Part shown: positions 4,718 to 64,000 of the stretch, piece after piece | Numbering within the stretch: position 1 is the stretch's first letter | Layout: every line of letters begins with the position of its first letter | Assembly: GCF_009831455.1 (NCBI RefSeq) | Contig: NZ_WOWO01000002.1 | Span: 868,001 to 932,000 of the forward strand | Length of the DNA stretch: 64,000 nucleotides | Direction of reading: 5' to 3' | From: Salinirussus salinus | GTDB taxonomy: Archaea > Halobacteriota > Halobacteria > Halobacteriales > Haloarculaceae | Position numbers and translations under genes: made by a program | Notes under the pieces: generated by a model | What the model was told of the DNA's origin: nothing | Database searches by the model: none | What the model saw: only the letters and a program-made list of their open reading frames with translations

Positions 4718-5767
4718 ATGAGCGGGCTCTCGGTCGGAGTGGTCGGGTGTGGCTATCGGGCAACCGAATCACACCTGCCCATCTACCGCGAAACGGAGCT
4801 GCCGGTGACGGTCGACTGTGTCTGTGACCTCGACCGCGAGTTGGCGACGCGGGTCGCACGCCAGTTCGACGTCCCCACCGTGTACGACGACGTGTCCGAG
4901 ATGCTCGGCGATGCGGACCTCGATGTCGTCAGCGTCTGCGTGCCCCCGCAGGCGCACTTCCCCGTCGCGCTCGAGGCACTACGAAACGGCTGTCACGTGT
5001 TCGTCGAGAAGCCGTTGACTCTCAGCGTCGAAACGTGCGACGAGCTGATACGGGCGGCCCGGGAGCGCGACCTGAAAATCGGGGTGATGCACAACATGCT
5101 CTACAACGAACCGTTCAGGGCCGCCAAACGGCGGATCTCCGCCGGCGAGATCGGGGAGGTGACCGGGGTCCGCACGCTTCTGACGAACCCCCGCGACGGA
5201 CGGCTTTCGGAGCGGGACCACTGGTACCACGACCTCCCCGGCGGCCTCCTGACCGAGACGTTGCCACACGTCTCGTACATCGCGCTGGACCTGATGGGGT
5301 CGGTCGACGACGTGGCCGTCACCGCACAGCAGGCGACGACCTTCGAGTGGGCGCCACACGACGAGTTCGAGATCCTGTTCGAGGGGCCGGACATCATGTG
5401 CTCGACCCGTGTCTCCTATTCGGGGACCCTGCGAACGATGCGGGTCGACATCCTCGGAACCGACGGCCACCTCCAGGTCGACATGATGGCCAACGCGCTG
5501 TACCGGTTCGGCCTGACGAGTATGGACTTCCTCTCGCTCGGGGTCTACTCGCTGAGCCAGATCGGACAGCGGGTCCGGCACCTGCTGGGCAATGTCGCGG
5601 CCGTCGTCGCGGGGGACGCAACCGCCGGGTCGAGGGTCGTCATCGATGGGTTCCTCGAGAGTGTCCTCCGGGACCGGGCGCCGCCCGTCGACGGCGAGGA
5701 CGGACGGCGATCCGTCGCGGTTCTCGAGGAGACCATCCAGCGCTACGAAACCAACTACGGGGGCTGA
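4718..5767 (+). CDS. Gfo/Idh/MocA-family NAD(P)-dependent oxidoreductase
   Basis: A 349-residue, full-length member of the family. The N-terminal Rossmann fold (VGVVGCGYRA, residues about 5-14) binds NAD(P). The VEKPLTLS motif (about residues 94-101) carries the family's conserved lysine, and the C-terminal half is the alpha/beta substrate domain. Relatives oxidise or reduce sugars, inositols or related cyclic alcohols, but nothing here fixes the substrate. The ATG is preceded by a GGGGGGAG element, suggesting a leadered message. It stands alone downstream of tRNA-Leu, and the tRNA-copy scar just upstream leaves open that it came with an integrated element. Confidence 0.85.
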   Translation: MSGLSVGVVGCGYRATESHLPIYRETELPVTVDCVCDLDRELATRVARQFDVPTVYDDVSEMLGDADLDVVSVCVPPQAHFPVALEALRNGCHVFVEKPLTLSVETCDELIRAARERDLKIGVMHNMLYNEPFRAAKRRISAGEIGEVTGVRTLLTNPRDGRLSERDHWYHDLPGGLLTETLPHVSYIALDLMGSVDDVAVTAQQATTFEWAPHDEFEILFEGPDIMCSTRVSYSGTLRTMRVDILGTDGHLQVDMMANALYRFGLTSMDFLSLGVYSLSQIGQRVRHLLGNVAAVVAGDATAGSRVVIDGFLESVLRDRAPPVDGEDGRRSVAVLEETIQRYETNYGG

Positions 5768-51123: not shown

Positions 51124-52266
51124 ATGACACAACGGGACCCGGAGACGGAGAGCGCTCGCGGTACGTCCAGACGCTCGCTGCTGAAGGCTGCCGGGACCGT
51201 CGGTGCGGCGGGGGTCCTCGGGCTGGCCGGCTGTGCCAGTCGGGGCGGCAACACTGACGACGGGTCGACCGACGCCGGAGGATCCACCGACGGCGGCGGG
51301 ACAGAGACGGGGGACGGCAGCGGGAGTGGAGGCGGGAGCGAGAGTGCGACCCCCGAACTCGGCGACTCGATGACCATCTTCCACGCCGGGAGCCTCGCGC
51401 CGCCGTTCGACGCGGCCGAACCGCAGTTCGAGGAGGAGTACGGCGTGGACGTCACCCGCGAGGCGAAGGGGTCGGTCGCCTCGACCCAGAAGATCACCCA
51501 GCAGGGCCGCGTTGCGGACGTGCTCGGCACGTCGGATTTCCGGCTCATCCGGAACCGCATCCTCCCGGAGTACGGCGACTGGTACACCGTCTTCACCACC
51601 AACTCGATGTCCATCCAGTACCGCGAGGACTCCCCCGGCGCCGACGAGATCTCCAAGGACAACTGGTGGGAAATCCTGACCCGGGACGGCGTGACGATCG
51701 GCCACTCCGACCCGGCGGTCGACCCCGGGGGGTACCGGGCGGTCATGTCACAGCAGCTTGGCGCCATCGAGTTCCGGGGGAGCCGGCTGTACGACGACGC
51801 GACCTATCAGAAGCTCCGCGAGAACTCGACGGTCCCGACGGGGACGGAGACGAAACTGGAGGGACAGCTCCAGTCGGGCGCGCTGGACTACGCCATCTAC
51901 TACCAGTCCATCTCCTCGACCTCCGGTCTCCCGTACATCGACCTCCAGGACCAGGTCGACCTCTCGCAGGCGACAAGCGAGTACGCCAGCCACTACGCGA
52001 AGGCGGAGGTCGAGACGGGAAGCGGGACGTTCACCGGCGCCCCCATCGCCTACGGGATGACGGTTCCGAGCGTCGCCGAGAACCCCGGCCGCGGCGCGCA
52101 GTGGGTCGAGTACTTCGCCACCGAACCCGGTCGCCAGATCCTCCGGGACCAGGGACTCGTCCCGGTCGACCCCATCGTGGTCCCGGGCAGCAGCGAGGAC
52201 GCGGTCCCGGACCGGGTGATGAACGTCGCGAGCGCCAAGGAAGCCCTCGGCCCGCTCGAGCTGTGA
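51124..52266 (+). CDS. wtpA: Tungstate/molybdate-binding lipoprotein (WtpA-like)
   Basis: A 380-residue Tat lipoprotein: twin arginines SRRSLLKAAG (R16-R17), lipobox LAGC (C37), then a 40-residue Gly/Ser/Asp linker. The binding domain has FHAGSLAPPFDAAE (about residues 86-99), the signature of archaeal WtpA/ModA-type proteins that bind tungstate or molybdate. The AOR downstream favours tungstate. It is the first gene of a wtpABC-type operon; a TATA-like catttatg lies about 35 nt upstream. Confidence 0.87.
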   Translation: MTQRDPETESARGTSRRSLLKAAGTVGAAGVLGLAGCASRGGNTDDGSTDAGGSTDGGGTETGDGSGSGGGSESATPELGDSMTIFHAGSLAPPFDAAEPQFEEEYGVDVTREAKGSVASTQKITQQGRVADVLGTSDFRLIRNRILPEYGDWYTVFTTNSMSIQYREDSPGADEISKDNWWEILTRDGVTIGHSDPAVDPGGYRAVMSQQLGAIEFRGSRLYDDATYQKLRENSTVPTGTETKLEGQLQSGALDYAIYYQSISSTSGLPYIDLQDQVDLSQATSEYASHYAKAEVETGSGTFTGAPIAYGMTVPSVAENPGRGAQWVEYFATEPGRQILRDQGLVPVDPIVVPGSSEDAVPDRVMNVASAKEALGPLEL

Positions 52267-52354: not shown

Positions 52355-53677
52355 ATGGCAACCATCGAGGGCTCCTGGTACCGGTCGGGTCGGCTCCGTC
52401 GCGGGTCAGTCGCGGCCGCCTTCCTCCTCGCCCAGCTGGTGGCGGTCGCGGTCGCCTACCGGGCCGGGCGACCGACGCTCTATGCCTTCTTTCTCGTCTT
52501 CAGTACGGCCGCGGCCGCCTACGCCGTCGAGCACGACGGCGGGACGCTGCTCGCCCTCGTCCGGTTTCTCGTCGTCCAGACCGGCGCGCTCGGGGTCGCC
52601 GTCCTCGCCGAGCGCGGCGTCGCGCTCACCACGACCGGTCGCGTCGAGGTGGGGTTCCAGCTGTGGGCCCTCCTGCTCGTCGGCTTCGCCGTTCCCGGCC
52701 TGCTGTACGTGCTGCGGCGGGCTGGCACCTGGTCGGCCGGGGCCGTCGGCGTCGTCGGCGTGGTCCTCCTCTCGGCGACCGCCGCGTTCGTCGTCGGCGG
52801 CGGGTTCGCGATCTTCCTCCCGCTGTGGGGCGTTCTGTACGTCGTCCTCGGCGTTGTTGCGGTCGCGTACACGCTCAGGGGGAGTCTTTTCACCGTCGCC
52901 ACGGCGACTCTGGGGAGCGTCCTGATGGTCGCGCTGGGCCTGCCGCTTGCGCTGTTCGTCGCCAGGCAGGCCCCGTCGGTTGTCGTGGAAAAAGCGCTCG
53001 ACCCGAACGTCCACCGGATGCTCTACCTGGGCATCTACGGCCCGCTCCTGGCTGCGCTTCTCAGCCTCGTCTGTGGCATCCCGCTCGCGCATCTCCTCGA
53101 GCGCGGATTCACCGGTCAGGCGCTCGTCGAAAGCCTCGTCGACCTGCCGCTGGTCGTCCCCCACAGCGTCGCGGGCATCATCATCCTCTTTGGCTTCGGA
53201 CGTGGAGGTGCGTTCCCCAGCGTGCCGGTGCTCGGTACGGTCGTCGGGATGGTGCTGGCGATGACGTTCGTCAGCGCCCCCTACGCCGTCAACGCCACCC
53301 GCGAGGCGTTCGAGGCTATCGACGACCGCCTGGAGTACGCATCCCGCATCCACGGCGCGAACCGCTGGCAGACGTTCCGTCGCGTCACAGCGCCGCTGGC
53401 CGTCCGGGGGATCGTCACCGGCGGCGTGCTCGCGTGGGCGCGGGCCGTCTCCGAATTCGGCGCCGTCGCGGTCGTCGCCTACACCGTCGACTTTTTCTAC
53501 CCGCTGGCGGGCGAGTCGGTCCGGGCCCAGCACGCGCCCGTGTTCGTCTACAACACCTACCTGCAGGGCGGGCTCACCGAGAGCGGCGCCGTCGCCTTCC
53601 TTCTTTTGGGCGTGTCGGCGCTCATCTTCCTCGTCGTCCGCTGGCTCACCGGCGACACCGGAGGGGTCCTCGGGTGA
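52355..53677 (+). CDS. wtpB: Tungstate/molybdate ABC permease (WtpB-like) with extra N-terminal helices
   Basis: A 440-residue permease. The C-terminal half (about residues 185-440) has six helices, the DLPLVVPHSVAGII segment and the EAA-type loop (EAIDDRLEYASRIHGANRWQTF). The N-terminal 180 residues add about five helices not found in typical 250-residue WtpB/ModB proteins. Its stop overlaps the ATPase start (GTGA), so the two are coupled. Confidence 0.85.
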   Translation: MATIEGSWYRSGRLRRGSVAAAFLLAQLVAVAVAYRAGRPTLYAFFLVFSTAAAAYAVEHDGGTLLALVRFLVVQTGALGVAVLAERGVALTTTGRVEVGFQLWALLLVGFAVPGLLYVLRRAGTWSAGAVGVVGVVLLSATAAFVVGGGFAIFLPLWGVLYVVLGVVAVAYTLRGSLFTVATATLGSVLMVALGLPLALFVARQAPSVVVEKALDPNVHRMLYLGIYGPLLAALLSLVCGIPLAHLLERGFTGQALVESLVDLPLVVPHSVAGIIILFGFGRGGAFPSVPVLGTVVGMVLAMTFVSAPYAVNATREAFEAIDDRLEYASRIHGANRWQTFRRVTAPLAVRGIVTGGVLAWARAVSEFGAVAVVAYTVDFFYPLAGESVRAQHAPVFVYNTYLQGGLTESGAVAFLLLGVSALIFLVVRWLTGDTGGVLG

Positions 53678-54768
53678 CGCTCGAGGCCGACATCGCGGCG
53701 ACGTTCTCGGCCGACGGCGCGGAGCCCTTCGTCGTCGACGCCGCCTTCGAGGTCGAACGCGGCGAGACGCTCACGATACTCGGGCCGAGCGGCAGCGGCA
53801 AAACGCTGCTGCTCGAGTCCGTCGCCGGGTTTCACGCCCACGACGGACGCGTCGCGCTCGACGGCCGACCCCTCAGCGACCGCCCCCCGGAGCAGCGGGA
53901 CTTCGGCTTCGTCTTCCAGGACTACGCGCTCTTTCCCCACGCGACCGTCTCCGAGAACGTCGCCTTCGGCCAGCGGTACCTCGGGCCGTCGTGGTGGGAG
54001 CGGGCCAGGGAGCTGGCGACCGGCGACGACAGGCGCTCGCGGCTGCGGGCCCTGGTCCGCGACGACGGGCGGAGTCGGCGGGAGCGACTCCAGCATCTGG
54101 CGCGACTCCAGCGCGAGGGGCCGGACGCGCCGGACCCGGCGCGGTTGCTCGAGGAGTTCGGCATCGACGACCTCGCGGACCGGTACCCGCCGACGCTCTC
54201 GGGGGGCGAGCGCCAGCGGGTGGCGCTCGCGCGCGCGCTGGCGGTCGAACCGGAGGTCCTCCTGCTGGACGAGCCCCTCTCCTCGCTGGATGTCCCGACC
54301 AGACAGTCGCTCCGGCAGGACCTGCAGGACGTCCTCGCGGATGTGACCGCGGTCTACGTCACCCACAACCGGACGACCGCGCGCGCACTCTCCGACCGCA
54401 TCGTCGTCATGAACGACGGCCGGGTCGTCCAGTCGGGGTCGCCGGAGGCGGTGTTCGAACGCCCGGCCTCGCCGATGGTCGCCCGCTTCACGGGCGCGAA
54501 CTGCATCCCGCTCGCGGACGTTCCCGGTCTCCGGGACCGCCTCGACGTCACCGCGGAGTACGTCGCTATCCGGCCGGAGGCGGTAGGTCTCGCCGACGAC
54601 GGGGACCTCCGCGGGGCCGTCGAACGGGTCGTCCGCGAGGGCGCTTCCTCACGGGTGACCGTCGACGCTGGAGAGGCGCGCATCGAGACACTCACCGAAA
54701 GTCCGCCGGCCATCGGGGCCGACGTGGCGTTGCAGTTCCCCCGCGACCGGCTGCACCCGGTCAGCTGA
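53674..54768 (+). CDS. wtpC: Tungstate/molybdate ABC transporter ATPase (WtpC-like)
   Basis: A 364-residue ATPase. Walker A GPSGSGKT, Q-loop FVFQDYALFPH, signature LSGGERQR, Walker B VLLLDEPLSSLD and H-loop VTHN are all intact. Between the Q-loop and signature there is a charged insertion of about 35 residues, longer than usual. The C-terminus has a TOBE-like domain that often senses the oxyanion. It starts at GTG 53674; its 3' end overlaps the convergent JAMM gene by 8 bp. Confidence 0.9.
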   Translation: MTLEADIAATFSADGAEPFVVDAAFEVERGETLTILGPSGSGKTLLLESVAGFHAHDGRVALDGRPLSDRPPEQRDFGFVFQDYALFPHATVSENVAFGQRYLGPSWWERARELATGDDRRSRLRALVRDDGRSRRERLQHLARLQREGPDAPDPARLLEEFGIDDLADRYPPTLSGGERQRVALARALAVEPEVLLLDEPLSSLDVPTRQSLRQDLQDVLADVTAVYVTHNRTTARALSDRIVVMNDGRVVQSGSPEAVFERPASPMVARFTGANCIPLADVPGLRDRLDVTAEYVAIRPEAVGLADDGDLRGAVERVVREGASSRVTVDAGEARIETLTESPPAIGADVALQFPRDRLHPVS

Positions 54769-55168
54769 GCGCAACCGCCTCCCGCGCGAAGCGTTCGCCC
54801 GTCCAGCGCCACGACCCGACGTATGGCCACTCCCCGTCGAGGACGACGATGAGGTACGAGCGCTCGGTCCAGGTCGCCCGCCGCCGGTCCGTGGGGCTCG
54901 GCTCCGCCGGCCCGTGCGGGTGCGAGTGATAGAAGCCGACGACCTCCTCGCCCGCTGCCTCCACCTCCTCCATCAGCGCGAGCTGTTCGGCGGGGTCGAT
55001 GCGGTACTCGGTGCGGGGGTCGGCGGCGACGTTCTCCGCCCGGCGGAGCGTCCGCGCGTGGCTCGTCGCGCCGCGCTCGCCGCCGAGGACGCCACACACC
55101 TCCGCCGGTGCGCCCTCGCGTGCGTGGTCGATGGCGGCGTCGTAGACCTCGCGGGTCAGCCGGAGCAT
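54761..55168 (-). CDS. JAMM/MPN+ metalloprotease (HJAMM/desampylase-like)
   Basis: A 135-residue single MPN+ domain. The full zinc motif is present: Glu23 (PAEVCG), HSH (H81, H83), Ser91 and Asp94 in HSHPHGPAEPSPTD. Archaeal JAMM1 of Haloferax cleaves ubiquitin-like SAMPs from targets and matures precursors. Here it is head-to-head with a SAMP/MoaD-like gene across 87 bp, and the latter has a C-terminal tail that could be its substrate. It is catalytically complete by sequence. Confidence 0.88.
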   Translation of the reverse strand: MLRLTREVYDAAIDHAREGAPAEVCGVLGGERGATSHARTLRRAENVAADPRTEYRIDPAEQLALMEEVEAAGEEVVGFYHSHPHGPAEPSPTDRRRATWTERSYLIVVLDGEWPYVGSWRWTGERFAREAVALS

Positions 55169-55255: not shown

Positions 55256-55582
55256 ATGGAGATCGAGATGCGGTTTTTCGCCAACTTCCGGGATGCAGTC
55301 GGCCAGAAGACCGTCACGCGGGAGTTCGACGGGGAGACCGTCGGTGACCTCCTGCAGGACCTCGCCGCGGAGTACCCCGGGATGGACCTGTTCGAGGACG
55401 ACGGCAGCCTCCGGGACTTTCTCACGATCATGAAAGGCGGCAAGGATATCGCCCACCAGGAGGGACTGGACACCCCACTCGAGGACGGGGACACCGTCAG
55501 CGTCTTCCCGCCGGTGGCTGGCGGGAGCGGGCGCGAGGACCAGAGCAAAACGGGACTGTCGTCCCGTGCTCAGCAGCAGTAG
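55256..55582 (+). CDS. Ubiquitin-like SAMP/MoaD-family protein with a C-terminal extension
   Basis: A 108-residue beta-grasp protein: MEIEMRFFANFRDAVG, GDLLQDLAAEYPGM, and the terminal LEDGDTVSVFPPVAGG. Gly-Gly is at residues 89-90, but an 18-residue tail (SGREDQSKTGLSSRAQQQ) follows before the stop. SAMP1 and MoaD act only with a free C-terminal Gly-Gly (isopeptide or thiocarboxylate). A TATA-like ctttta (55225-55230) lies 28 nt upstream. The 3' end overlaps the convergent gene at 55570-56001. Confidence 0.8.
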   Translation: MEIEMRFFANFRDAVGQKTVTREFDGETVGDLLQDLAAEYPGMDLFEDDGSLRDFLTIMKGGKDIAHQEGLDTPLEDGDTVSVFPPVAGGSGREDQSKTGLSSRAQQQ

Positions 55583-56001
55583 ATGAACGGGTAGATCATC
55601 GCGACGCGGTCGCCGTCCTCCAGCTCCGTGTCGAGCCCGTCGAGGTGCTCGTTGAACGTGCCGTTGACCGCGACGCGGGCGTACACCCGTGTCTGCTCGC
55701 CTTCGGGGTTCTTCGCGTAGTTCTCCCCCGGCAGCGACTCCAGCTCCGGCGCCCACCCCTCAGTCGTCGCCTCCTCCTCGGTCTCCGCGATGAGCATCTC
55801 CCCGACGTCGTAGTCCTCGAAAAACGCCTCCAGGAAGTCCCGGAGGGTGCCCCCCTCGAAGGTGTACTCGACCCGCGGCTCGCCGACCGCCGTCCGGACG
55901 TGACCGGTACACCGCGCCTCGACTGTCGTCCGGACCGGTGTCCCCGGGTCGGCCTCGCTCGCCCCGGCGTCGCGTGCCTCCTGCATGTGCGTGTTGCTCA
56001 T
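55570..56001 (-). CDS. MoaD/ThiS-like beta-grasp protein ending in Cys-Cys
   Basis: A 143-residue protein. The core EYTFEGGTLRDFLEAFFEDY, RVYARVAVNGTFN and LEDGDRVAMIYPFIYCC follow the MoaD fold pattern, including the loop VAVNG. The expected C-terminal Gly-Gly is replaced by Cys-Cys just before the stop (tgc tgc tga). An N-terminal region of about 50 residues precedes it. It overlaps the SAMP-like gene end-to-end. Its function is unknown, but its place beside AOR and Mo/W genes suggests cofactor work. Confidence 0.78.
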   Translation of the reverse strand: MSNTHMQEARDAGASEADPGTPVRTTVEARCTGHVRTAVGEPRVEYTFEGGTLRDFLEAFFEDYDVGEMLIAETEEEATTEGWAPELESLPGENYAKNPEGEQTRVYARVAVNGTFNEHLDGLDTELEDGDRVAMIYPFIYCC

Positions 56002-56147: not shown

Positions 56148-56534
56148 GTGGACGAACTCGAACTGACGATCCCGGAGGGTATCGTCGACTCGCTGCCGGC
56201 CGACAGCGACGACACGAAACAGGACATGGGCAAGGCCGTCGCCGGCTGGGAGCGCGAGCTCAACGCCGCCCTCACCGTCGAGAACGAGGACGAGGCAGTC
56301 AGCGCCGTCGTCGACATGATCGAGCACTTCCAGGAGCGGTGGGAGGCCTACGACGAGTTCGTGGTCGAACTGCGCGCCTGGGGGCAGTCGCCCATCTACG
56401 CGATGGCCTGGCGTGACCTCCACGCCGCGGTGCTCCAGCAGGTCTACGACCACGAGGACCTGGCCGACCGGATCGACCGCGAGCGCAACTTCCGGGCGGT
56501 CGACGACGGGATCCGCCCCGGCTCCGGCGGCTGA
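56148..56534 (+). CDS. Conserved-looking protein of unknown function in the Mo/W region
   Basis: A 128-residue acidic, helical protein: VDELELTIPEGIVDSLP, then AVVDMIEHFQERWEAYDEF and LHAAVLQQVYDHEDLADRIDRE. No motif is recognised. A leaderless start at GTG 56148 fits a TATA-like gatttatgg (56117-56125) 25-30 nt upstream. It ends GSGG, probably by chance. The position between beta-grasp genes and the AOR hints at a link with tungstoenzyme maturation. Confidence 0.6.
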   Translation: MDELELTIPEGIVDSLPADSDDTKQDMGKAVAGWERELNAALTVENEDEAVSAVVDMIEHFQERWEAYDEFVVELRAWGQSPIYAMAWRDLHAAVLQQVYDHEDLADRIDRERNFRAVDDGIRPGSGG

Positions 56535-56629: not shown

Positions 56630-56896
56630 ATGATCGAGCGCGAACGGAGTTACCGCGGGATCTCCGCCAGGGCCGCGGTCGGCTATCTCGAAAATCTCGG
56701 CGGCGAGCGGGTCGAGGACGGGATCGTCGAGGACAGGGACGGCAGCTGGCGGGCCTCCCTCTCCGAGGAGAAGGTAGACGTCGGACCCTCGCTGAAACTC
56801 ACCGAAGTGACGGTTGCCTTCGAAGGTGAAAGCGAGGACGCCCTGGACCGTCTGGTCGAGGAATTCTCCCAGAAGGCGATCCGTGCGGGCGGCTGA
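56630..56896 (+). CDS. Small protein of unknown function in the Mo/W region (88 aa)
   Basis: An 88-residue alpha/beta protein: GISARAAVGYLENLGGERV, SWRASLSEEKVDVGPSLKLTEV, FEGESEDALDRLVEEFSQKA. The alternation resembles a ferredoxin-like or DUF1952-like small fold, but I cannot confirm it. TATA-like ctttag (56598-56603) is 27-32 nt before the ATG. It is followed 19 bp later by another small gene, so both are likely co-transcribed. Confidence 0.6.
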   Translation: MIERERSYRGISARAAVGYLENLGGERVEDGIVEDRDGSWRASLSEEKVDVGPSLKLTEVTVAFEGESEDALDRLVEEFSQKAIRAGG

Positions 56897-56915: not shown

Positions 56916-57278
56916 ATGTCCGAGCAGACCCATCCAATCGAGGGGCAGGTCGTCCTGCTGGCCGGCGCACAGGCGAGCGTCACGCTCCAGGCACTCTCCG
57001 CGCTACTCGAAGACGCCCAGCGCCACCTCGTCGACCGCCGCGAGGACTACGGCCGCCGCTTCGAGCGCGTCGAGGCCGGCAGTCGGACCTACTATCTGGC
57101 CGACGCGAACCACTGGGAGCGGGTCGGAGAAGAACTCGGACTCGGCGACAGCGAGGCGGACGCCGTCCGGCGGGCTCACGGGGCACAGTTCCGGCGGGAC
57201 GGCCGCCGGCTCGACCGGAAGGCGGAGTTCGAGACCGCGATGGAGATCCGCGACCCCGTCGCCATCGCGTCGCCCTGA
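56916..57278 (+). CDS. Protein of unknown function (120 aa) in the Mo/W region
   Basis: A helical, charged protein: MSEQTHPIEGQVVLLAGAQASVTLQALSALLEDAQ and AHGAQFRRDGRRLDRKAEFETAMEIRDP. No cysteine or known motif. The spacing of 19 bp from the preceding gene indicates a shared transcript. I do not recognise a family. Confidence 0.6.
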   Translation: MSEQTHPIEGQVVLLAGAQASVTLQALSALLEDAQRHLVDRREDYGRRFERVEAGSRTYYLADANHWERVGEELGLGDSEADAVRRAHGAQFRRDGRRLDRKAEFETAMEIRDPVAIASP

Positions 57279-57321: not shown

Positions 57322-57681
57322 TCACTCCGCGAGCTCGATCGTCTCGACGACCTTCTCGGAGAACTCCACCTCAGTGAGGTCGCCGTTGTGCAGCCGGTCG
57401 AGCCACGCCGCCTCGACGTGCCATCGGCCCCGCTCCTCGCCCTCGAAGTCGGTCACCACGGCGTCGATGTCCGCCCCGCTCCAGTCCTCGTCGTGCAGGT
57501 CCCGGAAGACGTTGATCACCCGTCCCACCTCGCGGTGGGGGACCACGCCCTCGCTGTCGGCGGAGATCGACTCGTAGGTGACCGCGTAGCCCCCCTCCCG
57601 CTCGACGACCTCGTCGACGTAGACGCCGTGGCTGGTCAGCCGCGACTCTACGCGGAACTCGAAATCCTCGTCGTCGGTCAT
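57322..57681 (-). CDS. Small acidic protein of unknown function (119 aa)
   Basis: A 119-residue acidic alpha/beta protein starting MTDDEDFEFRVESRLTSHGVYVDEVVEREGGY, with YESISADSEGVVPHREVGRVINVFRDL and WHVEAAWLDRLHNGDLTEVEF. The beta-rich front half and helical back half look like a single small domain. No motif is known to me. It lies just downstream of the AOR gene on the same strand and may share its transcript. Confidence 0.6.
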   Translation of the reverse strand: MTDDEDFEFRVESRLTSHGVYVDEVVEREGGYAVTYESISADSEGVVPHREVGRVINVFRDLHDEDWSGADIDAVVTDFEGEERGRWHVEAAWLDRLHNGDLTEVEFSEKVVETIELAE

Positions 57682-57768: not shown

Positions 57769-59709
57769 TCAGTCGTCGGCGGGTGCCTGCGAGTCGCCGC
57801 CGGCGGAGACGCCGGTGCCGGGCCCGACCTCGATGCCGAGCTCGTCGAGCTTCTCGTCGGGGACGACACCGTCGACCCAGCCGCGGACCTCGTAGTACTC
57901 CGCTTTGAGCTGGTCGAGTTCGGCGAGCTGACCCTCGCTGCCGCCCTGGGCCGGGATGGCGTCATCGTGACCCTCGACGAAGCGGCCCGGCAGGTCGTCG
58001 TCGTCGCCGTCGAAGCCGGCGAGGTTGTTGTAGTACCGCTCGAGATTGTAGATGCGCTCGCCGGCCTCCAGCAGCTCCTCCTCGCTGACGTCGCGTCCGG
58101 TCATCCCGTTGTACTGGAGGACGTACTCCTCGATGCCCTCCGCGAAGGCGTTGAACTTGCAGATGTCGAAGGAGTCGGAGATGGCGTGCATGTCCTGGAA
58201 GGTGACACAGAGCTCACCCTTCCCCTCGGGCTCGTGGGGGTCGACCTGCTCGAGGATGCCCAGGATCTCCGCGGCTGGCGTGTACCCCCGGAGGTGACAG
58301 GCCCCGCGGTTCGAGGTGGCGTAGCCGATGGCCATCCCCTTCATGCAGCGGGGGTCGTAGGCGGCCATCGTCTGGCCCTTCACGGCGAGGGAGTTCTCCT
58401 CTGCGTCGAACTCCGCTTCGAGGTGGGCGGGGCCGCCGGCAAGGTGGTCGGCGAACTCCGTCTCCCGGTGGGCGATCCGGTCGAGCAGGTCGACCATCTC
58501 CGAGGAGTCGCCCCAGTCGAGACCGTCGCCCTCGACATCGTCGAACTTGCCCTGCTCGGTCATCTCCATGGCCATCGCCATGGTGTTGCCGGCGTCGATG
58601 GTGTCTATCCCGAGGTCGTTGCATCTGTCGACCATCAGGACGGAGTCGTCGAGGTCGGTGTGCGCGGAGTTGGGGCCGAGCGCCCAGGCCGACTCGTACT
58701 CGAAGGACTCCATCCGGACGTTCATCTCCTCGCCTTTGTGCATCGCCTGGACCTCGACCTCCTTCTTGCAGGCGACAGGACAGGAGTGACAGGTCGGTTC
58801 GTCGACCAGGATGTTCTCCCGGACGTGCTCCCCCGAGACCCGCTCGGCGTCGATGTCCACACCTTCGGAGTCGCTCATCGACCGCGTCGAGGAGTACCGG
58901 CCGTTCTTGGTCGGGAGGCCGTCCATCTCCTCGGTGACGTTCATCAGGACGTTGGTCCCGAACATCGAGAGCCCGCCCTCGTTGGGCGCGGTGACGTCCG
59001 ACTCCTGGATGAGCTGCATCGCCTGCTTGTGGCCCTCCCGGAAGGTCTCGGGGTCGGCGGGCTTTTGCATCTCCGTGGAGGACTTGACGACGACCGCCTT
59101 GAGGTTCTTCGACCCCATGACGGCGCCGGTCCCGCCCCGGCCGGAGGCGCGGTCGTCCTCGTTGACGATGCAGGCGTAGCGGACCTCGTTCTCCCCGCCG
59201 GGCCCGATGGCCATCGCCGAGAGGTTCTTGCCGTACTCGCCGCCGATCTCGTCTTCGATCTCCGCCATCGTGTCGTGGACGCCCCACCCCCAGAGGTGGG
59301 AGGCGTCCCGGAGTTCCACCTCGCCGTCCTCGACGTAGGCGTAGACCGGGTGCTCCGCTTTCCCTTCGAACAGCAGGCCGTCGAAGCCGGCCCACTTCAG
59401 CCGCGCGCCCGACCAGCCGCCGTGGTGGGAGTCGGTCACCTGCCCCTTGATCGGCGACTTGGTGCAGATGGCGATCCGGCCGCTCATGGTGACCTGCGTC
59501 CCCGTGAGCGGGCCGTTCATGAACGCGATGAGGTTGTCCGGCCCCAGCGGGTCCACGTCCGGCCCCTGGTCGAAGACGTACTTGACGCCGAGCCCGCGCG
59601 CACCGATGTACTTCTTCGCGTCCTCGTCGTCGACGCCCTCGTAGGCCACCTCACCCTCGCTGAGGTCTACCCGCGCCACGTGGTCGTGGAAGCCACCTAA
59701 GTCGGTCAT
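57769..59709 (-). CDS. aor: Tungsten-type aldehyde ferredoxin oxidoreductase
   Basis: A 646-residue AOR-family enzyme that oxidises aldehydes (or a related substrate) with ferredoxin as partner. The pterin-binding motif GRGGTGAVMGSKNLKA (about residues 190-205) and the Fe4S4 ligands C307, C310, C314 (CHSCPVAC) and C517 (DICKFNAF) are all present. The C-terminus has a Gly/Asp-rich acidic tail. A TATA-like gttaagt (about 59742-59748) lies about 35 nt before the ATG. Archaeal AORs carry a tungstopterin, so the nearby WtpABC and Moa genes make sense as supply. Confidence 0.93.
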   Translation of the reverse strand: MTDLGGFHDHVARVDLSEGEVAYEGVDDEDAKKYIGARGLGVKYVFDQGPDVDPLGPDNLIAFMNGPLTGTQVTMSGRIAICTKSPIKGQVTDSHHGGWSGARLKWAGFDGLLFEGKAEHPVYAYVEDGEVELRDASHLWGWGVHDTMAEIEDEIGGEYGKNLSAMAIGPGGENEVRYACIVNEDDRASGRGGTGAVMGSKNLKAVVVKSSTEMQKPADPETFREGHKQAMQLIQESDVTAPNEGGLSMFGTNVLMNVTEEMDGLPTKNGRYSSTRSMSDSEGVDIDAERVSGEHVRENILVDEPTCHSCPVACKKEVEVQAMHKGEEMNVRMESFEYESAWALGPNSAHTDLDDSVLMVDRCNDLGIDTIDAGNTMAMAMEMTEQGKFDDVEGDGLDWGDSSEMVDLLDRIAHRETEFADHLAGGPAHLEAEFDAEENSLAVKGQTMAAYDPRCMKGMAIGYATSNRGACHLRGYTPAAEILGILEQVDPHEPEGKGELCVTFQDMHAISDSFDICKFNAFAEGIEEYVLQYNGMTGRDVSEEELLEAGERIYNLERYYNNLAGFDGDDDDLPGRFVEGHDDAIPAQGGSEGQLAELDQLKAEYYEVRGWVDGVVPDEKLDELGIEVGPGTGVSAGGDSQAPADD

Positions 59710-62563: not shown

Positions 62564-63046
62564 ATGAGCGACGACCTCACACACACCGACGAGACAGGCG
62601 AGGCGCAGATGGTCGACGTGGGCGACAAGCCCGACTCCCGGCGGCGGGCGGTCGCCGCGGGCCAGCTCGAACTGCGGCCGTCGACCGTCGAGGCGGTCCG
62701 GGACGACGAGGTGGAGAAGGGCAACGTGCTCGCTACCGCCCGCGTCGGCGCCGTTCAGGCGGTCAAACACACCTGGGAGACGGTCCCGATGTGTCACCAG
62801 ATCCCCATCACGAACGTCGATACCGACTTCTCGCTGGACGCCGAGGCCGGGACCGTCGACCTCGAGGTCGCGGTCGAGACGACCGGCAAGACCGGCTGCG
62901 AGATGGAGGCTCTGGAAGGGGTGACGACGGGACTGAACGTCGTCCTTGACATGGTGAAGGCGGCCGAGAAGAATGCGGACGGACAGTACCCCGAGACGCG
63001 GCTCACCGACGTCCGGGTCGTCGAGAAGGTGAAGCGGTCGGTCTGA
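62564..63046 (+). CDS. moaC: Cyclic pyranopterin monophosphate synthase MoaC
   Basis: A 160-residue enzyme that turns the MoaA product into cPMP, the first stable intermediate of molybdopterin synthesis. MVDVGDKPDSRRRAVA, KHTWETVPMCHQIPI (metal- and substrate-binding) and TGKTGCEMEALEGVT are intact. The ATG is 27 bp after a tandem repeat. It is convergent with moaA, with 33 bp between them. Confidence 0.95.
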   Translation: MSDDLTHTDETGEAQMVDVGDKPDSRRRAVAAGQLELRPSTVEAVRDDEVEKGNVLATARVGAVQAVKHTWETVPMCHQIPITNVDTDFSLDAEAGTVDLEVAVETTGKTGCEMEALEGVTTGLNVVLDMVKAAEKNADGQYPETRLTDVRVVEKVKRSV

Positions 63047-63079: not shown

Positions 63080-64000
63080 TCAGTCGTCGGCGGTCGCGGG
63101 CTTTCTGACGTACTTCTCGTTGAGCACCCACTCGCCGTCCTCCTCGACGAGGTACTCGCCGTAGTAGGGGACGCGGTTCGCGACGGTCTCCCGGAAGGTC
63201 TCCCGGATCTCGGGTTTGGTCATCCCGCCCATCGGACGGTGGTCGTCGCCGCGATTGAGGCAGCCCTTCAGCTTGCCGTCGTGGGTCACCCGGACGCGCT
63301 CGCAGTTGGCACAGAACTCCTCGTTCTCGACGGGGTCGACGATCTCTACCATCCCCTCTCCGTCCCCGTCCTCGGAACTCACGTAGTAGCGCCGGCGGTC
63401 GTGCATCTCGCGGTGTTCGACCCGGTCGGCCTGCTCCTCGAGCCAGCCGTGGACGCGGTCGATGTCGACCGCCCACTCCGGATTGCCGACGAGCTCGGGC
63501 ATGTACTCGATGAGCTGGAGCTGGAGGCCGTCGTTTGCGGCGACGTGGTCGACCATCCGGGGAATGTAGCCCGCGGTCGCCTCGAAGACCACCATGTTCA
63601 GCTTGACGGGAGCGAGGCCCGCCGCCAGCGCGGCCTCCACGCCCTCGATGACCTGGTCGTAGGCACCGCTTTTGGTTATCTGTGCGAAATCGTCGGGGTC
63701 GAGTGCGTCCTGGGAGACGTTGACCCGTTCCAGCCCCGCTGCCTTCAGGTCCGGCGCCCGACCGGGGAGGAACGTGCCGTTGGTCGTCATCGAGACCTCC
63801 ATTCCGTCGGGGGTCCGGCGGATGATCTCCTCCAGGTCCTGCCGGAGCATCGGCTCGCCGCCGGTGAACTTGACTGCCTCGACGTCGAACTCCCGGGCCA
63901 CTTCCAGGAAGCGGACCACGTCGTCGGTGTCCATCTCGTGGTCCTGCGCGTCCATCGGCCCGCGGGTGTCGCCGAGCCCCTCGTTGTGACAGTAGACGCA
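63080..64000 (-). CDS. moaA: GTP 3',8-cyclase MoaA, 5' end outside the window
   Basis: A radical-SAM enzyme that starts molybdopterin synthesis from GTP. At the right edge the frame reads [10 protein letters not shown], the last two cysteines of the CxxxCxxC cluster; the first lies beyond the window. Downstream: [30 protein letters not shown], and the C-terminal Fe4S4 motif [21 protein letters not shown]. The start is not visible. It is convergent with moaC, so the pair is not an operon. Confidence 0.95.

Follow-up and report, generated by a model that had tools for sequence, protein, structure and literature searches.

The β-grasp proteins MoaD, ThiS, Urm1 and the SAMPs are thought to act through their C-terminal glycine, and the Gly-Gly end is needed for adenylation by E1 and for formation of the thiocarboxylate or isopeptide. 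The sulfur-trafficking proteins DsrC and TusE carry a functional penultimate cysteine on a flexible C-terminal arm, a feature shared with the protein described here, although the folds are unrelated. A haloarchaeal β-grasp family with a Cys-Cys C-terminus, arCOG00539, was described by Makarova and Koonin in 2010 (PMC2948915), the only paper in the literature search in which this arCOG was named. No further description of a CC-ended MoaD was recognised in the text available from a broader search, and neither “pterin cluster protein”, as a single gene on a plasmid is called, nor HVO_2178 or HVO_0383 was found in the literature searched; HVO_2177 occurred in one paper.

The window, which is the whole 64,000-nucleotide stretch of Salinirussus salinus DNA analysed here, encoded a protein of this kind on the minus strand (55570..56001). 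This protein of 143 aa, referred to as the CC protein, had a MoaD/ThiS-like β-grasp and the C-terminus YPFIYCC, in which the penultimate Cys142 was the conserved residue. It shared the haloarchaeal origin, the β-grasp and the double-cysteine C-terminus with arCOG00539 and was assigned to that family by description. The sequence-only reading had suggested a sulfur carrier of a new type, which was too strong for the family itself, since a CC-ended haloarchaeal β-grasp arCOG had been published. The available text of PMC2948915 gives the CC motif only; new here are the penultimate-cysteine rule, the dependence on aldehyde ferredoxin oxidoreductase (AOR), with an AOR-only distribution in a nested gene set, and the genomic island together with a second, alternative set of contexts.

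The CC gene, its fold and its neighbours

The reading frame started with ATG and ended with LEDGDRVAMIYPFIYCC and a stop, which confirmed the Cys-Cys end in place of Gly-Gly. The codons of the Tyr-Cys-Cys end and the stop (55570..55581, minus strand) overlapped the tail of the SAMP1/MoaD gene (55256..55582, plus strand). The two genes were convergent, with stops at 55570-55572 and 55580-55582, and the 13-bp overlap was as first read. The Pfam family ThiS (PF02597) matched residues 105-138 with 28.5 bits, above the cut-off of 22.5. The SAMP1 model NF041918 gave 26.5 bits (cut-off 60) and the archaeal MoaD model TIGR01687 gave 29 bits (cut-off 49.5), both below the curated thresholds. The AlphaFold2 model obtained with alignment A1 had a mean pLDDT of 76 and a pTM of 0.65, with a confident β-grasp core and low confidence in an insert at about residues 71-110 and at residues 141-143. 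The best Foldseek match of this model in the PDB was SAMP1 of M. acetivorans (2l52, E 1.2e-5); HVO_2177 (2m19, E 6.8e-5), a chain of mycobacterial MPT synthase and SAMP1 of H. volcanii were also among the top matches. The Foldseek probability to SAMP1/MoaD was 1.00, and a sequence-profile search returned similar PDB entries weakly. The structural modelling that had been proposed, together with the Pfam match, thus upheld the claim of a MoaD/ThiS-like fold. Compared with SAMP1 and archaeal MoaD (PDB 2l52, 4hro), the CC protein had the same fold, an alignable LEDGD..P end and a common genomic island, but it carried CC or Cx for GG and an insert of about 30 residues with KNPEGEQTR. When aligned by eye without gaps, the two ends read YPFIYCC and FPPVAGG. 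The CC protein is a MoaD-derived β-grasp protein without the Gly-Gly end.

The CC gene was placed in a tungsten-cofactor island. Three ABC transporter genes on the plus strand encoded a substrate-binding protein (51124..52266; best match tungstate WtpA), a permease (52355..53677; best match WtpB) and an ATPase (53674..54768; second-best match WtpC), all below the curated cut-offs. These were followed by a JAMM/Prok-JAB metalloprotease gene (54761..55168, minus strand; PF14464) and by SAMP1 (NF041918, 91.3 bits, cut-off 60). On the other side of the CC gene lay P128, a 128-aa helical protein (56148..56534, plus), the RAGG protein of 88 aa, named after its RAGG end (56630..56896, plus), P121 of 120 aa (56916..57278, plus; no Pfam match) and P119 of 119 aa (57322..57681, minus; no significant family match), the last two being module members in many relatives. 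The AOR gene (57769..59709, minus; AFOR_C 387.5 bits, AFOR_N 248.9 bits), MoaC (62564..63046, plus) and MoaA (63080..64000, minus, continuing past the window end) completed the island. AOR and MoaD neighbourhoods are listed among tungsten cofactor clusters in the available part of PMC1779556.

The SAMP1 of the window carried an 18-aa tail after FPPVAGG (55526-55582 with the stop), with the JAMM protease gene adjoining; the SAMP1 proteins seen in relatives mostly ended in VAGG and lacked this tail. Short tails after VAGG were also present in loci L046, L048, L049, L220, L224 and L241. In four loci (L222, L238, L240 and L226, from genomes G076, G112, G105 and G203), SAMP1 (..FPPVAGG) and the RAGG protein were fused in one reading frame by a short linker. 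Judged from its sequence, this fusion would be a natural two-carrier polyprotein and would need a cut after VAGG. The RAGG end was kept in all aligned rows listed, and the protein had no match to the ThiS family; it is probably arCOG06308 (TBP-like, GG end), according to context and to the description in the text available. In P128 the motif ELRAWGQSPIYA was conserved. Its model was helical (pLDDT 89) and had no PDB fold match at E<=0.001, and P128 was rejected as a GG-ended protein because the GSGG end of the window's copy was not kept in relatives.

The genome contained one E1 gene and one MoaE gene, the latter 1.6 kb past the window. This single pair, the SAMP1 gene next door and a fold kept though GG was lost are in line with a decoy or regulator, which would fill the MoaD site of MoaE or E1, damp the sulfur flow to molybdopterin and shift the supply of Mo/W cofactor, with the Cys tail only sealing the pocket or forming a regulatory disulfide. 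Covalent linkage of SAMP1 inhibits MPT synthase activity, as stated in the available part of PMC4443979. However, a decoy has no obvious need for an invariant cysteine one residue before the end, nor does it predict a strict dependence on AOR, and we consider it quite unlikely.

Conservation of the C-terminal tail

The tail was analysed in 198 loci, which gave 167 distinct reading-frame pieces, a set that includes second copies, broken genes and near-identical entries for species present in more than one collection. PF within the last seven residues, followed by a stop, was found in 160 of these 167 pieces. The penultimate residue of the PF-tailed pieces was Cys in 159 and Ala in one, a second-copy paralogue (L126). 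The last residue was Cys in 126, Leu in 12, Val in 10, Phe in 10, Tyr in 1 and Pro in 1, and none of the 160 had Gly as its last or penultimate residue. The consensus of the tail was P-F-[hydrophobic]-[F/Y]-Cys-[C/L/V/F]. In alignment A1, which leaves out broken copies, Cys142, Pro138 and Phe139 were invariant in 33/33 rows. A tree of 151 rows was computed with the two final residues removed, and it implied at least 11 switches between Cys and a different residue at the last position; as the rows were picked by their PF tail, PF was present in 151/151, and F/Y was likewise found in 151/151. Cysteine made up 0.86% of the residues in the 454 predicted proteins of the CC loci, so that a penultimate Cys in nearly every piece is more than chance.

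Among the seven remaining pieces, those of L039 (5457-5858) and L029 (1495-1887) were shorter tandem paralogues with about 40% identity to the query and the ends PLTC or PLTV. L150 was a second copy ending in PFLFAPRS, L110 had a changed tail, L195 ended in YLFMFRC, and the ends of L024 and L198 were decayed. In-frame stops were found in the copies of L021 and L036, and several genomes had decayed or altered copies of the CC gene.

These results showed that the conserved unit is the penultimate cysteine and not the pair, which was ruled out as the unit by the variable last residue. A homologue without CC would have spoken against the original proposal, and here the outcome was divided: the last Cys was absent in 34/160 pieces, whereas the penultimate one was absent in 1/160. 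A chance C-terminus or a recent frameshift as the origin of the CC end was rejected, since the tail recurs across haloarchaea. The variable last Cys disfavours an obligatory two-cysteine site, be it a metal site or a vicinal-dithiol redox switch, because it changed repeatedly while the penultimate Cys stayed, and the tail pattern would rather favour a single functional thiol.

The same data bear on two further roles of the tail. A metal chaperone whose terminal thiol or thiols bind tungstate-derived W, Cu or Zn and pass the metal on would agree with the Cys end, with the WtpABC-like genes of the island and with the halocyanin, NirK and P-type ATPase neighbours of the CC gene in some relatives. 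Only a single cysteine was invariant, however: residue 31 was Cys in 80 of the 97 tree rows that could be scored (54 rows were left unscored by the pattern), and with both this residue and the last Cys varying, no fixed multi-cysteine site exists within one chain, which makes the chaperone very unlikely. Rab proteins have -CC ends that resemble the tail of the CC protein. Prenylation or acylation of the C-terminal Cys as a membrane anchor would fit a hydrophobic and aromatic tail with a near-terminal Cys, but position 143 tolerates C, L, V, F or Y and nothing ties AOR to membranes here, and the chance of such lipidation appears minimal.

Distribution of the CC gene and its genomic contexts

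When the CC protein (P0001) was used as a query, 28 of 58 genomes of relatives were matched, 26 with E below 1e-15 and two weakly. In the order as a whole, 151 of 253 genomes were matched at E<=0.001; the 145 with E<1e-15 were taken as CC carriers, and six weak ones (G057, G133, G179, G197, G215 and G221) were set aside. When 294 genomes of the phylum were searched with a profile, strong matches (E 8e-41 or better) came from the same order only, and no strong relative was found outside it; all other matches reached at most 29.2 bits, at positions 59-131 in the generic MoaD part.

AOR (PF01314) was present in 184 of the 253 haloarchaeal genomes. Both genes were found in 145 genomes, CC alone in 0, AOR alone in 39 and neither in 69 (Fisher 2.8e-34, with kinship ignored except in four within-genus contrasts). 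These contrasts came from genera g3, g5, g18 and g27, in each of which one genome lacked both genes and its congeners had both. In the sampled genomes, the CC gene exists only where AOR exists, and the suggested link to tungsten AOR, which was to be sought in the co-occurrence of CC-ended homologues with AOR genes, is supported: AOR was present in all 145 carriers, and the CC gene in none of the 69 AOR-less genomes. With a “close” AOR class set by us at E<=1e-105, both were present in 142 genomes, CC alone in 3, close AOR alone in 33 and neither in 75. The three exceptions were the drafts G045, G135 and G199, and in G045 the CC gene adjoined a piece of AOR at the contig edge, with 85% identity to the AOR of the window. 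AOR has no general need for the CC protein, because 33 genomes with close AOR lack the CC gene. The genes formed a nested set in the 253 genomes, with AOR in 184, the RAGG protein in 180, P128 in 179 and CC in 145. All 180 RAGG genomes had AOR, the 179 P128 genomes fell within the 180, and every CC carrier except draft G135 had both small proteins; none of CC, P128 and the RAGG protein was found outside AOR genomes.

The order AOR - P119 - P121 - RAGG protein - P128 - CC - SAMP1 was kept in L031/L002, L032, L040, L050, L051 and L068, and shuffled or partial versions were seen in L035, L046, L054, L064 and L065. Some 390 bp upstream of its CC gene, L035 encoded a protein with the end STGGGCC (5150-5515), which may belong to arCOG08988, the second family with a CC end described in the 2010 paper. 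Of the 123 CC genomes with a listed place for P128, 40 had the two genes at most 10 kb apart, and in the other 83 the CC gene was not near P128. Its other sites were beside nirK, qNor, CGCGG peptide, pseudo-rSAM (TIGR04347) and HTH genes, or alone. It was near nirK in 14/93 and near a type-II DMSO-reductase gene in 4/24, and in L041 and L213 it immediately preceded a type-II DMSO-reductase operon. With kinship ignored, nirK was present in 95/145 CC carriers versus 33/108 other genomes, and a NarG-like type-II DMSO reductase (E<=1e-100) in 24/145 versus 1/108.

These contexts raise the possibility that the CC protein serves anaerobic nitrogen-oxide respiration as an accessory factor and that AOR simply accompanies the anaerobic lifestyle. 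Since the CC gene is often away from P128 and sometimes near nirK or a type-II DMSO-reductase gene, it may act with a different redox enzyme. The strongest signal against a role with AOR comes from the denitrification contexts, which could reflect either a shared Mo/W-pterin role or a partner other than AOR. On the other hand, 50 of the 145 carriers had no nirK and 121 had no NarG-like gene, whereas none lacked AOR, and a role in nitrogen-oxide respiration is therefore unlikely.

A proposed role in tungsten-enzyme maturation

Taken together, the fold, the loss of Gly-Gly and the tie to AOR stood, whereas the requirement for a cysteine pair and the novelty of the type did not. The CC protein is probably a helper of AOR or of the AOR cofactor. 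The explanation that we tentatively prefer, short of calling it probable, is that a GG-less MoaD paralogue takes part in the maturation of the tungsten-pterin AOR by presenting a C-terminal thiol. In this explanation, a MoaD-derived protein would have exchanged Gly-Gly for a single indispensable thiol on the penultimate residue, and its role would be the maturation of AOR and, in genomes that have AOR, perhaps also of related Mo/W enzymes. The protein would dock like MoaD, by its β-sheet, on a cofactor-assembly partner, which could be MoaE, an insertion factor or AOR itself, and the CC tail would be pushed into a pocket of this partner. There, the Cys thiol might carry sulfur as a persulfide or transiently coordinate the metal or pterin, while the dithiolene would still be made by the ordinary GG carrier SAMP1, encoded alongside. 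We infer that E1 cannot use the CC protein as a GG carrier and that the thiol takes part in assembling the tungsten-pterin enzyme. The sequences alone do not distinguish between persulfide carriage, ligation of metal or pterin, and a block of MoaE. A more specific version, possible but doubtful, is a β-grasp persulfide carrier independent of E1 and GG, whose penultimate Cys would deliver sulfur or a W-thiolate to the tungsten-pterin cofactor of AOR together with the AOR-only small proteins P128 and RAGG.

A Gly-less MoaD relative with a near-terminal Cys, kept beside one class of tungsten enzyme only, would show that different chemistry can be carried on the same fold. P128, the RAGG protein and the CC protein form a small, testable gene set that tracks haloarchaeal AOR almost perfectly, and this tracking opens the poorly known maturation of the tungsten enzyme to deletion genetics.
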